The notes beneath the pieces were generated by a model, which worked only from the letters and a program-made list of their open reading frames with translations, did not search any database and had not been told where the DNA came from. Below, piece after piece: positions 2,151 through 9,467 of a DNA stretch of 64,000 nt (within the stretch, counting starts at the first letter, position 1; the number at the start of each line of letters is the position of its first letter). Both the position numbers and the translations under genes were made by a program. The stretch is from the NCBI RefSeq assembly GCF_001939115.1, contig NZ_MQTZ01000041.1, positions 312,816 through 376,815 on the forward strand. The letters run 5' to 3'. The DNA comes from Leptolyngbya sp. 'hensonii' (GTDB lineage: Bacteria; Cyanobacteriota; Cyanobacteriia; GCF-001939115).

Positions 2151-2681
2151 CTACAGCTCATCCATCAGTGCGTCGAGGGTTAGGGACTGATCCGGGTCCG
2201 ATCGAGGGAAATCCTGCCCAGCGGAGCCCGCCTGAAGGTCCGGTTGTCTGGCCTCAGAAACAGGTAAAGGGGCAGCCGAAGCCTCTTCTGGCAAAGCATT
2301 CCGCAGCGATTTCAGCTCTGCCTCCAGGCTTTGAATGCGCTCCTGGAGTTGCTGGATTTCGTTGGCAGAACCATGGTTCAGCAGAGCCTGAGCTCGGGTA
2401 TTGAGATAGGGATCGTTTTCCCACCAATTGATCCCAATTTCCCTGGCCTTATCCACGGAAGAAATCAGAAGTCGAATCCGAATGCTCAGGAGTTCAGTGG
2501 ACCCAACCGTAATCGAGATGTCCCCAGCAATCACAATTCCCTTGTCCAGAACCCGCTCCAGCACATCTGCCAGACTGGAACCTGTGGTAGATGTCGCAAT
2601 AGCCCGATTGCCGGGTGTTGATGATCGTGCCTGTGGACCGGTAGTCACAGCCCAGTACCCCTGTAAAGGAAATGAAGCCAA
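2151..2681 (-). CDS. gvpJ: Gas vesicle protein GvpJ
   Basis: A 176-residue GvpA-related minor shell or assembly protein. The GvpA-like core (about 35-95) contains SSLADVLERVLDKGIVIAGD and a GINWWENDPYL segment typical of cyanobacterial GvpJ. A coiled-coil (NEIQQLQERIQSLEAELKSL, about 106-125) and a low-complexity acidic tail follow. Translation probably begins at a TTG at 2681, immediately after the gvpN stop (zero spacing). This gives a roughly 30-residue N-terminal extension, slightly longer than usual, so a later start is possible. It is part of the minus-strand operon gvpA-C-N-J. GvpJ is needed in trace amounts for vesicle formation in characterised systems. Confidence 0.9.
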   Translation of the reverse strand: MASFPLQGYWAVTTGPQARSSTPGNRAIATSTTGSSLADVLERVLDKGIVIAGDISITVGSTELLSIRIRLLISSVDKAREIGINWWENDPYLNTRAQALLNHGSANEIQQLQERIQSLEAELKSLRNALPEEASAAPLPVSEARQPDLQAGSAGQDFPRSDPDQSLTLDALMDEL

Positions 2682-3917
2682 CTAGCGGATTTTTCGGTAG
2701 AAGTCGCCACGCTGTTTAAGGATGCCCTTTTTCACCAGAGATTGGAGAGCATTAACCGTCTGAAATCGATCTAACCCCAGGGCAGTCTCAACTTCAGAAA
2801 CCCGAGCACTTTGAGACTGCCCCAGATAGGTATACACCTGTTGTTCCTGGGTTGAGAGGGGATCAGGGGTTGACTCCAGCTCGGCTGAGGGCTGGGATGG
2901 AACCAATGCCTGATCGGGTTGATCCAGATCAGCAATAATTTCACCTGTTTCGATAGCTGAGGCGACCTCTTCTTCAAGTCCGTCCTCCAGCTTAGCGGAC
3001 GGCAGGTCAATTTGCGCTTTTGCTGCAGGATGAAGAGAACAAAACTCATCCAACAATTTCCAGAGAAGTGTCGTGGCTTCCTGGACCGGTAGGCTGGTCC
3101 GAGCCAGCAAGACATCGCTACAGACATCTCGAAACTCCAGGTTGTCTGGCCCAATCGGGATCTGGTGCTCCAGGCAAACTTTACCAATGATCAGGGCAGG
3201 CCGCAGCCCGGATGCTTTTTCTGTTGCAGTACAGGCCCGAAATTCCCGGATTAGACGGACGATGAGTAAAGCCCCTTCCCGATCGAGCCCTACTTTTTGC
3301 ACCAAAATTTCTTGCTGCGTTAATTCATCCGGTTCTGGCATGGCCATCGTGACCAGTCGGTCTAACAACGCATCCTGGGTAGCATGGACCCCGTAATATT
3401 CCTCTGGGTTAGAGGTGAAAATGGCCCGAAACTGAGGATGAACCCGAATGTACTCTGACTTATTACTAGTGGGGGGAAGCACCAGCAGTTTTTCCTCTAA
3501 AGCGGACAGCAGCACATTATTGACTTCAGGGCGCGATCGATTGAATTCGTCATAGACCAGGGTGAACCCTTCTTTGCAAGCCAGAGTCAAGCGAGAATCG
3601 ACCCAGTTCTGGCGCAGCTCATCCTCTACCTTCACCACACTATGGATAAAGTTATCCACCACTTTCTTGCGGGTATAACCAGACTGGTTGCCGATCAGGT
3701 CAGAGGTCTTGAATTCATCATCCCCAAAAACCAGCATAATAGGCCGACCCAACAGATCGGCCAGGTGTAAGGCTAGAGTCGTTTTACCTGTTCCTGCCGG
3801 TCCCCGCAAATGGACTGAATAGCCCGATTGAAGATAGCGCAGCGCTCTGACGGAGAGGCGTTCAACAGCGGGAGTGCTGACAAATCGACGGGAACGAGCT
3901 TGCAGGATAGTCGTCAC
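2682..3917 (-). CDS. gvpN: Gas vesicle AAA+ ATPase GvpN with C-terminal winged-helix-like domain
   Basis: A 411-residue protein. The N-terminal part is a MoxR-like AAA+ ATPase with Walker A GPAGTGKT (39-46), Walker B TLVYDE (119-124) and a sensor segment [14 protein letters not shown]. GvpN assists vesicle growth in known systems. The last 58 residues (354-411) form an extra domain with the pattern [16 protein letters not shown], nearly the same as the end of the preceding GvpC. An acidic, Pro/Gln-rich linker (about 310-353) joins the two. The start is GTG at 3917, overlapping the gvpC stop as GTGA, so translation is probably coupled. The C-terminal extension makes it longer than the classical GvpN. 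Confidence 0.92.
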
Positions 3918-5113
3918 TGGCTATTGACCTCGTTAATGTAATAGATGCGATCGCGCTGCACGACCAATCCCTTCTTCACCAGAGACCGCAGCCCATCCAC
4001 GGCCTGAAAGCGATTAATCCCTAATGCCGATTCTAACTCAACCAGTCGGGATCCATGGCTGTTCTCAATTTGGTAATAAATCTGCTTCTCGATATCCGAT
4101 TGATCGGTGTTGGCGGGTTCCATGCCCTGAGGAAATTGGGTTTTCGGCGCTGGGGGAGGTGCTGGCGGCTCAGCCTTCCCGGCAGTCCCCTGAGAGGCCA
4201 CCGTCGTTGGCGGTACAGGATTGGCGGCTGGTTGTTGCGCTACAGGCTTGGGAGGGGGTGTAACCTGGCTGGTTATGGGGGAAGGAATCTGCAGATCGGC
4301 ATCTGAGCCGCCCCAGACCTGTTGTTTGAGGGTACTCCGGTATTGTTTAACGTCAGCCCGAAAATTGGCCAATGTTTGAAACAGACTCTCAACCTCAGTC
4401 AGTCGTTCTGCCCGGCTTTCAGCCAGGCGCTCCCCCATTTCCTGCGCCCGCTCTTCCCGAAAAAGTTCCAGTTCCGCCAGGGTATTACGGACATCTAGCC
4501 GCAACTTTTTCATAAACTGGGTCAGTTGTTCCAGCACCTCTACCCGCATGATGGCCCGTTGTTGGGCATTTGCTATCATCTGGGTTTGGGTTTCAACCTG
4601 GAGCAATTGAACGTCTGTCTTGATTTCCTGAAGTTTCTGCTGATGGTTTTGCTGGAGGGCCTCAACCGTCTCCTGGAGAGAAGTATAGAACTGCTGTAAG
4701 TCCTGAGAGAGGTGTTGAGCCATCAACTCTCGTTTGACGGATGTGAGCTGCAGAAACTGCTGTGTTTGTTGTTGGATTGCAGCACTGAAGTCATCGAGTT
4801 GGGTAAACAGCGCGCTAGCCTGAGTCAGGCGATCGCAGCGACTATCCATCAAAAAATCCTGGATCTGCTGCTGTCGTTCCAGGCGGGCCTGGTGCAAAGC
4901 AACCTGATAAACGGCGCTGTCTCCCCGGCGCACCTCATCCGTCTTGATGAGCTGGTCATGAAATGTGGTGAGCGATTGCCTCAGGTTGGTGGCCTGATGC
5001 TGCAACTGCTCACGAATTTCGCCCAGAGAGTCGGCCACCTGCCGACGGCGTTGTTGAACTTCCTGTTGTCGTTGCTGTCTCTGCTTTTGCCATTCATCTC
5101 TTAAAGCAGCCAT
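3914..5113 (-). CDS. gvpC: GvpC-like gas vesicle protein with Pro-rich linker and winged-helix-like C-terminus
   Basis: A 399-residue protein from the ATG at 5113, chosen because AGGAGA lies 6-7 nt upstream and the product begins MAALRDEWQ, like GvpC. The open frame extends to 5251 without a good start. Residues 1-270 are a long amphipathic coiled-coil, rich in Gln, Leu and Arg, with degenerate repeats of the type [13 protein letters not shown] and [15 protein letters not shown] that resemble the roughly 33-residue GvpC repeats. Residues about 270-338 are a Pro/Ala linker. Residues 339-399 are a winged-helix-like domain shared with GvpN. GvpC binds the outer face of the vesicle and stiffens it. 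Assignment rests on position and repeat character; the tail is atypical. Confidence 0.8.
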
Positions 5114-5290: not shown

Positions 5291-5509
5291 TTATGCGGAT
5301 GGAACGGCAGCCTGGGCAGTCAGACCCACGGCCTCAGCGTATTTCAGGTAAGTTTCGACGGAAGCGATCACAATACGAGCTTCCACGGCCAGTAATTCAA
5401 TCCCTACGAGAGAAACACGAACCCAGGCATCTATGACAATACCTTTATCCAGAATCCGATCGACGACTTCGGCGAGACTGGAGGAAGAGTTTACTTTTTC
5501 GACAGCCAT
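5291..5509 (-). CDS. gvpA: Gas vesicle structural protein GvpA
   Basis: A 72-residue protein that forms the ribbed shell of the gas vesicle, an air-filled buoyancy organelle in the cytoplasm. The sequence is almost diagnostic: [20 protein letters not shown] at the start, then [20 protein letters not shown] and an alpha-helical [20 protein letters not shown]. Length matches the family (about 70). The start at 5509 has an AGAGGAT ribosome site. It is the first gene of the minus-strand gvp operon. Only one gvpA copy is present here, whereas several cyanobacteria have tandem copies. An 800-bp region upstream must hold its promoter. Confidence 0.97.
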
Positions 5510-6311: not shown

Positions 6312-9300
6312 GTGGCAAAGCGTCGTTGGCTGGATATTGTCGAATACATATCATTTTCTGGTTCAGTCCTGGGATTGGTGGCCTCAGCAATTTCTCAGCA
6401 GGCCATTTTTGCTTCTGCTCCCTTAACCTTTTCAATTCTGCTGAACCTGGTGAATCGTCGTCGCCTGAACCAGGATATTGAAACTAAAATCCTTCCAGAC
6501 TTAAATCACCTTAATGAGCAGACAGCTAAAGATAGTCAGGCCCTCCTATCTCTCCGGCGTAAAGTTCTGGCTCTGCCCACTCCCGATGATTTGGGAAATC
6601 TCAAAGAGGAGATGCTGAGCCGAGATCGGGATGACATGGCCAGACTGGATGCCCAGATTTCTGTGGTGCAATCGGAACTGAAGAGTCGTCTTGCTCCTCT
6701 GGAGAAACTTGATCTGAGCCCAATCCAGAGCAATCTGGCTCAATTACAAAACCGCACCACAGAGTTAGAAACGGCTCTGGGTAACTTGAACGATAGTCTG
6801 GAGACTGTGCCAACCGCAGATCGGGTGGAGTATTTGGAATCCACGATCGCGGATTTAGTTGCGGAACAGGGGCAGTTCACAACCAACCTGGAAGAACTGG
6901 CCAATCAGCCTCCGCCGGATTTTTCACCCTTACAGGAGCAGATCGATCGCCTGCACGGACTGTTTATTCAGTTGCCACCGCCCTTTAATCCTGCCCCGTT
7001 ACAAGAAACAGTCCATATCTTGCGGCAGGAAATGGAACGATCGATCCAGATGATGAGTAGTTTGGTTCCTCGTCAGGAGTTAACCGTGCTCCTAACGGAG
7101 ATAGAAAACCTACGCCAGCGCCAGCAGGGATTAGGACAGTCGGTGGTGCCATTGCGAGACGCAATCTCTGCGCTTCAGGGTCAGTTGGGTCGTCTGACCC
7201 AGGAGTTTAGCGATCGCATGGAACCCGGGTTACTGGAAGAACTCAGACGGACTCTGTTTAAAGTTGCCAGTAAAGTTAGAGATCTGCAACGTGAGGTTAT
7301 TGCTTTTCAGCATACTGAGCAGACGGTTGCACCTCAACAGTTACAGAGTTTACAAACAGCGTTACAGGCAGAGATCATTTCCTATGCCGATGCCATGGGA
7401 CGACAACTGGCCACAGTTCAGCAAGTGCTGGGGAATCTAGAACCCACCGTGCACCATTTACAGGGACAACCTCAGAAACTGGAGGTGGTGCAACAGGAAC
7501 TGGAGACGTTACGGCAGTACTTGCAGTCCTTAGACCTGGAAGTCCAGTTAATGCGCGATCGACTTCCTGCCAAACCGCCAACTTCTGTCTCCGGGCTAGA
7601 AGAACTGCAGCAGCAACTAGAAGTGATGCAGCAGGCGATCCAGGGCTTAATTCGCCACCAGCAAATGGAGTCTGGCCCTGCAGATCCATTGCCGCAGGAG
7701 GATCCCGAAACAGACATTCTGGAAGTTCTGGCTATCCACAACGATCGACCAGACCATCGGTTTGGTAGCAATGGGATCAAGTTAGGAGGAGGGGATTCAA
7801 CCTATGTTCAAGCAACGACACAGAGTCCGAATCCGCTGATAGCGACAGTTCAGCCGGAAGGATATGCACTCAGGACTGAGGAACTGGATAGTCAGACCTT
7901 GTTAGCGGAAGCCCTGGGAAAAGTTCAGGAGCGTCTGATCGTCATGAGTTCCTGGCTAGAACAATGTTCTCTGGATGATTCCCTATTTCAACGTCTAGAG
8001 CGACTCCTGCGACAGGGCATTCGAATTGATCTGGGGTGGAGTTTGTATAAAACACCAGAAACCCCGTTAATGATTCGCCGGATTAACCAGCAATGGATGG
8101 ATGATTCTTGGCAGCAGGATGGGCTTTACGAAGCCTTAAAACACTTTAAGCAACTGGCTCAGGATTATCCAGAGCGCTTCAAGCTGAGGGCTTTGGCAAC
8201 CCAGGAACGGTTGCTGGTTTGCGATCGTGCCTTTGCCATTCTGGTTCGCCATCCAACTCCTAGCAGTCTTCAGGAGGAAGAAGTCGGCCTCTGCACAGCC
8301 GATCCGGCTATTATTCAGCACCTAATTGACAGTTTTGATCGCTCAATTACGGATTCAGAAACGGCCCTGACCTGCTTTAAGCGGGCAGATACCCGTTACG
8401 ATCTGGGAGATACGCAGGGCGTCATTGCAGATTACACCCGCGGCTTAAGCCTGGAGCCCAGCCAGGATATTGCCTTGAACAACCGGGGCGTGGCTTATTA
8501 TCTTCTGGGGGGCCGGGAACGGGCGATCGAAGACTTTAACCATGCCCTGGAAATTAATCCAGGCAACGCCGACGCCTACTTTAATCGGGGAGTAGCCTGG
8601 GCGGAGTTGGGAGATAAGGAAGCGGCGATCGCGGACTATACCGAAGCCATTCGTCTGCATCCGGGGGATGCCATTGCCTATAACAATCGGGGCTTAGTCC
8701 GCTCTAAATTAGGGGATTATGAGGGCGCAGAGCAGGACTATACGGAGGCCATCGGTATCAACCCCAGCAGCAATGTCGCTTACAACAACCGGGGGCTAGT
8801 GCGATCGAAGTTAGGCAATAAGTCGGGGGCGATCGATGATTATACCGAAGCCCTGCGCCTCACCCCTGATGATGATACGGTCTACTTTAACCGGGGTGCA
8901 GTTCGAGCCAGTGTAGAAGACTATGAAGGAGCGATTGAGGACTATAGTGCCGCCATTCGATTTAACCCAGAGTTTGTCAATGCCTATAACAATCGGGGGT
9001 TTGTCTATCAAAAACTTGGCCATAAACAGGCTGCGATCGAAGACTTCAATCGAGCCTTGCAGATTAATCCTAACTTTGCCAATGCTTACAATAACCGGGG
9101 GACTGCCCGTTCTAAGTTGAAGGATTTCGAAGGGGCGATTAAGGATTTCAATCAGGCACTCCAGATTAATCCCAACTTTGCCAATGCTTACAATAATCGG
9201 GGGACCGCCCGTTCCAAGTTGAAGGACTTTTCAGGGGCGATTCAGGATTTCAACCGGGCCCTTCAGGTCAATCCCCATTTCGCCAATGCCTACAATAACC

Positions 9301-9467
9301 GGGGCCTGGCCCGTTCTGATATCGGGGATATGACCGGTGCGATCGAAGACCTGATCAAAGCAGGCGAGTTATTCCGGGACCAGGGGGATCTGGCAGGTAG
9401 TCAGCAGGCGATCAAGGCAGCCCAGCGACTGCAGCACCAATCCAGTCTGGCGGATATGCCTTATTAA
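6312..9467 (+). CDS. Membrane-anchored coiled-coil protein with C-terminal TPR array
   Basis: A 1051-residue protein starting at GTG 6312 after GAGGGA. Residues about 10-48 form one or two hydrophobic helices (VEYISFSGSVLGLVASAISQ and FASAPLTFSILLNLV), which I read as a membrane anchor. Residues about 50-460 are long coiled-coils. A middle segment (about 520-680) is globular. Residues about 690-1030 hold about nine TPR units of 34 residues, the last ones almost identical (ANAYNNRGTARSKLKDF). TPRs mediate protein-protein contacts, so a scaffold role is likely, but no partner is known. It is the first gene of the plus-strand run after the gvp region. Confidence 0.85.
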   Translation: MAKRRWLDIVEYISFSGSVLGLVASAISQQAIFASAPLTFSILLNLVNRRRLNQDIETKILPDLNHLNEQTAKDSQALLSLRRKVLALPTPDDLGNLKEEMLSRDRDDMARLDAQISVVQSELKSRLAPLEKLDLSPIQSNLAQLQNRTTELETALGNLNDSLETVPTADRVEYLESTIADLVAEQGQFTTNLEELANQPPPDFSPLQEQIDRLHGLFIQLPPPFNPAPLQETVHILRQEMERSIQMMSSLVPRQELTVLLTEIENLRQRQQGLGQSVVPLRDAISALQGQLGRLTQEFSDRMEPGLLEELRRTLFKVASKVRDLQREVIAFQHTEQTVAPQQLQSLQTALQAEIISYADAMGRQLATVQQVLGNLEPTVHHLQGQPQKLEVVQQELETLRQYLQSLDLEVQLMRDRLPAKPPTSVSGLEELQQQLEVMQQAIQGLIRHQQMESGPADPLPQEDPETDILEVLAIHNDRPDHRFGSNGIKLGGGDSTYVQATTQSPNPLIATVQPEGYALRTEELDSQTLLAEALGKVQERLIVMSSWLEQCSLDDSLFQRLERLLRQGIRIDLGWSLYKTPETPLMIRRINQQWMDDSWQQDGLYEALKHFKQLAQDYPERFKLRALATQERLLVCDRAFAILVRHPTPSSLQEEEVGLCTADPAIIQHLIDSFDRSITDSETALTCFKRADTRYDLGDTQGVIADYTRGLSLEPSQDIALNNRGVAYYLLGGRERAIEDFNHALEINPGNADAYFNRGVAWAELGDKEAAIADYTEAIRLHPGDAIAYNNRGLVRSKLGDYEGAEQDYTEAIGINPSSNVAYNNRGLVRSKLGNKSGAIDDYTEALRLTPDDDTVYFNRGAVRASVEDYEGAIEDYSAAIRFNPEFVNAYNNRGFVYQKLGHKQAAIEDFNRALQINPNFANAYNNRGTARSKLKDFEGAIKDFNQALQINPNFANAYNNRGTARSKLKDFSGAIQDFNRALQVNPHFANAYNNRGLARSDIGDMTGAIEDLIKAGELFRDQGDLAGSQQAIKAAQRLQHQSSLADMPY
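9061..9264 (+). repeat. Two near-identical 102-bp TPR units
   Basis: The segments 9061-9162 and 9163-9264 encode consecutive 34-residue TPR units that share most bases, including AACTTTGCCAATGCTTACAA in both copies. The low divergence relative to the upstream TPR units points to a recent in-frame duplication within the gene. Confidence 0.8.

Follow-up and report, generated by a model that had tools for sequence, protein, structure and literature searches.

The window analyzed here is a 64,000-nucleotide stretch of Leptolyngbya sp. 'hensonii' (RefSeq assembly GCF_001939115.1, contig NZ_MQTZ01000041.1, positions 312,816 to 376,815 of the forward strand). It contains a gas vesicle (gvp) gene cluster on the reverse strand, in which the genes and their parts are laid out as follows:

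5291..5509, reverse strand: gvpA, upstream in the same cluster (Pfam Gas_vesicle, 61.2 bits)
3914..5113, reverse strand: gvpC, with an intact frame of 399 aa at 3917-5113
4319..5113, reverse strand: coiled body of GvpC with putative degenerate 33-residue repeats (from phmmer homology and autocorrelation)
4115..4318, reverse strand: Pro/Ala-rich linker of GvpC, residues 266-333 (26% Pro; 65% P/A/Q/S/T)
3938..4090, reverse strand: predicted winged-helix tail core of GvpC (tail HMM, 79.2 bits); the last ~65 residues reach 3917
2682..3917, reverse strand: gvpN, an intact frame of 411 aa with a GTG start, its start base adjoining the gvpC stop
3099..3884, reverse strand: AAA+ ATPase body of GvpN (NCBIfam TIGR02640, 391 bits against a cut-off of 267)
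2862..3050, reverse strand: acidic linker of GvpN, residues 290-352 (25% D/E)
2697..2846, reverse strand: predicted winged-helix tail core of GvpN (tail HMM, 75.4 bits)
2151..2681, reverse strand: downstream gvpJ/A-like gene (Pfam Gas_vesicle, 56.4 bits; no NCBIfam Gvp model above its own cut-off)

The body of the window GvpC, a predicted coat protein, is similar to GvpC of P. rubescens PCC 7821 (phmmer E 9e-19) and to the repeats of Nostoc GvpC (E 2e-10). Its self-similarity at a lag of 33 residues was 0.14 versus -0.54 +/- 0.15 in shuffled sequences, with lags of 18 and 62 equally high, and the Pfam model of the 33-residue repeats (PF01304) had no match on the protein. This body is related to the 33-residue-repeat coat body of classical Anabaena and Nostoc GvpC. 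However, the classical proteins that we compared end directly after the repeats, with neither the linker nor the tail of the window GvpC. The gvp genes of the source genome are scattered, with two GvpL/F genes on contigs other than this one (L155 and L156, corresponding to C42 and C12), one of them adjoining frames that we named GvpK-like and GvpG-like by eye. Near the gvp cluster on the other strand, at 6312-9467 (+), is a 1051-aa open reading frame whose first half is coiled-coil and which has numerous TPR-like repeats (NAYNNRG...).

A first-pass annotation of this locus had claimed that GvpC and GvpN end in the same winged-helix-like module, joined to each body by a low-complexity linker, and both parts of the claim were borne out. 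The reported 23 identities over 49 positions were slightly conservative: the two window tails align without gaps at 25 of 53 identical positions and 72% positives (BLASTP, 53.5 bits, single-pair E 7e-17). The pair reached a Smith-Waterman score of 125, compared to 23.4 +/- 4.5 in 5000 shuffles (maximum 49), and by the same measure five MarR winged helices taken from related cyanobacterial genomes scored only 20-44; the resemblance is therefore far beyond both chance and generic winged helix-turn-helix likeness. Significance extends to the profile level, where 71 GvpC tails matched 71 GvpN tails with a probability of 99.9 and an E value of 2e-35. By these alignments, GvpC and GvpN have homologous C-termini, which are paralogous copies of one module.

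Structure predictions of both tails agree with the proposed fold. AlphaFold2 models built from the locus alignments consist of three helices and a two-stranded wing, i.e., a minimal winged helix, with a mean pLDDT of 89 for the GvpC tail (core ~97) and 82 for the GvpN tail (core 85-89). The best Pfam family is TrmB, which at E values up to 0.01 is found on 61 of the 71 GvpC tails and on 46 of the 71 GvpN tails; among the window tails it exceeds its cut-off of 25.6 bits on GvpN only (28.4 bits, versus 17.9 bits on GvpC). Structure matches of the models include Z-alpha, MarR, IclR, TrmBL2, and a 59-residue Sulfolobus DNA-binding protein. Foldseek TM scores reached up to 0.87 by target length, with no E value below 0.001, and VIA gave Z of 10-11 to winged helices across 55-70 residues. 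The fold is thus held in common with the domains of TrmB and MarR (PF01978 and PF01047). Unlike in those regulators, the tail is attached to the C-terminus of a coat protein or AAA+ ATPase and is accompanied by no dimerization or sensor domain. Protein-binding winged helices (ESCRT-II and ScpB) are also among the fold relatives, and therefore the fold by itself does not decide the function.

GvpN was detected in 151 of 291 genomes sampled class-wide; 120 loci were taken and, with the window, make up the 121 cyanobacterial gvpN loci surveyed, in which all open frames were scanned with an iterated tail profile. Both proteins carry the tail in 71 of these loci, GvpC only in 14, GvpN only in 8 (one of which, L109, begins at a contig edge), and neither in 28, so that the module is not peculiar to the source genome. 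In the GvpC-only loci the GvpN linker is still there and the tail is gone, and in one of them (L122) GvpN stops even before the linker. Tailed frames other than GvpN are nearly all GvpC: 83 of 85 match a GvpC-body profile, which was used instead of a classical-repeat HMM (built from two published consensus strings) that missed most GvpCs. Scanning the source genome with the tail profile up to an E value of 10 returned two matches, the gvpC and gvpN of the window, and across 59 class-wide genomes every strong match was a gvp pair. So far, then, the tail is confined to GvpC and GvpN in the genomes scanned whole, one weak match apart. That match (G027:C119:3961-4053, E 0.003) lies in a 639-aa frame. 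A generic winged helix-turn-helix spread over many proteins is ruled out for the source genome and, with this one exception, for the 59 genomes as well.

Present in many filamentous cyanobacteria, the tail is the common state in those of the Leptolyngbya, Nodosilinea, Oscillatoria, and Oculatella types; among 80 named loci it occurs in Leptolyngbya, Nodosilinea, Oculatella, Oscillatoria, Kamptonema, Planktothrix, and others. As the first-pass annotation had supposed, it is missing from classical GvpC of the Nostocales type; it is also missing from GvpN in the haloarchaeal and Methylosinus loci compared. The named loci of Nostoc and P. rubescens PCC 7821 carry the tail on GvpN only, and several Nostoc and P. 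rubescens GvpCs lack it; the tail HMM had no significant match in Halobacterium GvpC, GvpN, or GvpO or in a Methylosinus gvp locus. Of 60 Nostocaceae genomes sampled, 11 have a tail. Five of the 11 have a rearranged cluster, with gvpA-gvpC ~5 kb away from gvpN, and retain both tails, showing that adjacency alone does not explain the pairing of the tails. A third tailed protein suspected in these five genomes proved to be the relocated GvpC. In one Arthrospira genome (PCC 9108), gvpC appears to break off within its linker (L198:5127-6111), with a shortened tail in another frame, as if the tail were decaying.

The unicellular-type GvpCs and GvpNs sampled have no tail. Together with the tail-less Nostoc and P. 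rubescens GvpCs, they show that the tail is not general among cyanobacterial GvpC and GvpN with a known function. After the linker, tail-less GvpCs of this type have another conserved end of ~60 residues (KIEQFVVDYVAQL...VNDRDTVRDLLAQGANTLKVDPSDILNTLL), found in 15 loci (L134:8787-9950, L139:9086-10123, L148:9492-10754, and 12 more) and absent from GvpN; three examples scanned against Pfam gave no match.

The history of the module was traced on trees of the GvpN body and of the tails themselves. The GvpN-body tree, with SH-aLRT support only, places the tailed sequences in a single group of 102 loci (98%) and leaves 17 tail-less loci outside; on it, tail presence takes 10 changes for GvpN and 4 for GvpC. 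The tail tree separates N and C tails into mostly distinct sets (5 changes versus 55 when shuffled), and a single N-tail clade, i.e., one ancient duplication, is compatible with the data (p-AU 0.30). N tails are the less conserved, with a mean identity of 40% among themselves versus 59% among C tails. Identity between N and C tails is 43% within a locus and 42% between loci, and since the former is not above the latter nothing points to recent copying. A duplication or gene conversion of recent date within the source genome is likewise ruled out, as each window tail clusters with tails of its own kind. Read most simply, the module was duplicated once, long ago, between neighboring genes, and repeated loss of either tail would have followed. 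The first-pass suggestion that one tail was copied from the other is supported as to common ancestry, and the duplication is old.

The resemblance of the tails was in part noticed before. In the accessible text of Pancrace et al. 2017 (PMC5259702), a 28-residue stretch at the end of Planktothrix GvpC40 has 64% identity to GvpN of Planktothrix, the end of GvpC of Geitlerinema PCC 7407 is similar to that of GvpC40, and the large GvpC40 belongs to non-planktic Planktothrix, whereas planktic strains have shorter GvpCs. Here, non-planktic Planktothrix GvpC (L206) carries the tail, as the window GvpC does; the tail occurs in PCC 11201, and GvpC of PCC 7821 lacks it. The same portion of that paper gives no domain or fold, survey of GvpN tails, mechanism, or distribution past Planktothrix and Geitlerinema. 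Our literature search, which scarcely covered subscription journals, found no publication naming a winged helix in GvpC or GvpN.

At three columns of the recognition helix the same letters are common in both tails: column 27 is R in 100% of C tails and 96% of N tails, column 29 is Q in 91% and 54%, and column 35 is R in 89% and 70%, respectively, as expected for one ligand. We tentatively lean toward a winged-helix docking module dedicated to gas vesicles, which would bind the same partner or surface from both proteins and thereby concentrate GvpN on coated vesicles. Each tail would ride on its flexible linker, in many copies on the GvpC coat and once per subunit of the GvpN ATPase. The partner recognized by both would most likely be a protein, either another Gvp or the tails one another without obligate pairing, and GvpN would as a result be gathered on GvpC-coated, growing vesicles. 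Contact with GvpN at the end of GvpC has a precedent in haloarchaea, where the small C-terminal domain of GvpC is bound by GvpN and GvpO in pulldowns of whole proteins (PMC9372576). However, the haloarchaeal end is unrelated in sequence: in Halobacterium it is a CxxC...HxxxH, zinc-finger-like end with no tail-HMM match, and the GvpN there is tail-less. In L237:1964-2821 this GvpC ends in the zinc-finger-like motif CRVCEEYYQAITEPHLQTH, in the end bound by GvpN in that organism (PMC9372576). Against this reading, the tails are often lost, including the GvpN tail in 14 sampled loci, and the module is thus not essential for vesicles.

The first-pass annotation had offered either a shared binding partner or a pairing of the ATPase with the coat. 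Of these, a shared partner agrees better with the data, and obligate pairing of the tails is unsupported, since either tail is lost alone. A direct dimer, in which contact between the GvpN tail and the GvpC tail would anchor the ATPase on the coat, would suit the presence of homologous domains on GvpC and GvpN in the same operon and their joint retention in 71 of 121 loci, as well as the haloarchaeal contact through the GvpC C-terminus. N tails also score lower where the C tail is absent (54.8 versus 64.0 bits, p 0.0025, not phylogeny-corrected), which slightly favors some mutual dependence. However, the C tail of the 14 GvpC-only loci scores no lower for the loss of its counterpart (84.0 versus 84.8 bits, p 0.43), and 8 loci (the one at a contig edge included) keep the GvpN tail by itself. 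Given the GvpN body, distances among N tails and among C tails are correlated at a partial Mantel r of 0.05, inside the null; there is no coevolution beyond ancestry, and tail-tail coevolution as proof of contact is ruled out. The correlated presence of the two tails on the GvpN tree offered too few independent pairs. Because the losses are independent, the C tail is equally conserved alone, and covariation does not exceed ancestry, a common partner is likelier than obligate pairing, and we regard the dimer as unlikely.

One point against protein docking is that most of the structure matches at the size of the tail are winged helices that bind DNA (Z-alpha, MarR, IclR, and TrmBL2). Together with TrmB as the best Pfam family, they fit a DNA-binding module. 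Unassembled GvpC and GvpN would then bind a site such as the gvp promoter and either report on vesicle synthesis or repress it; alternatively, the module would tie vesicles to the nucleoid. The net charge of the tails equals that of cyanobacterial MarR domains, which this reading would allow, but N tails average -0.05, and as the tails are not separable from the MarR domains the charge is uninformative on DNA binding. When the regions 5' of gvpA in tailed loci were searched for an operator, a weak test, no shared palindrome rose above shuffles (at most 3 regions, versus up to 4 in shuffles); the 8-mers of these regions are led by GCGATCGC. An abundant outer coat protein would moreover be an unusual regulator, and DNA binding seems improbable to us. 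That the old duplicates instead took up different partners, for example coat self-assembly for GvpC and a substrate or subunit contact for GvpN, is doubtful: it would agree with the independent loss of either tail, the far lower conservation of N tails, and the largely separate N and C sets in the tail tree, but the recognition-helix residues remain common to both.

A domain so far seen only on GvpN and the coat gives a testable handle on the way in which the GvpN ATPase reaches gas vesicles and enlarges them. A broader proposal, which we put forward as rather speculative, is that this gvp-specific adaptor arose a single time in cyanobacteria, was copied between the coat protein and the ATPase, and may serve as a GvpN recruitment code in mat- and filament-forming lineages. 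Planktonic and unicellular lineages, where GvpC may have a different conserved end, would then have lost or replaced it. The tails define architectures of cyanobacterial GvpC, with bare repeats, a winged-helix tail, or another conserved end, and these classes bear on the comparison of vesicle strength between benthic and planktic cyanobacteria and on vesicles engineered as ultrasound reporters.
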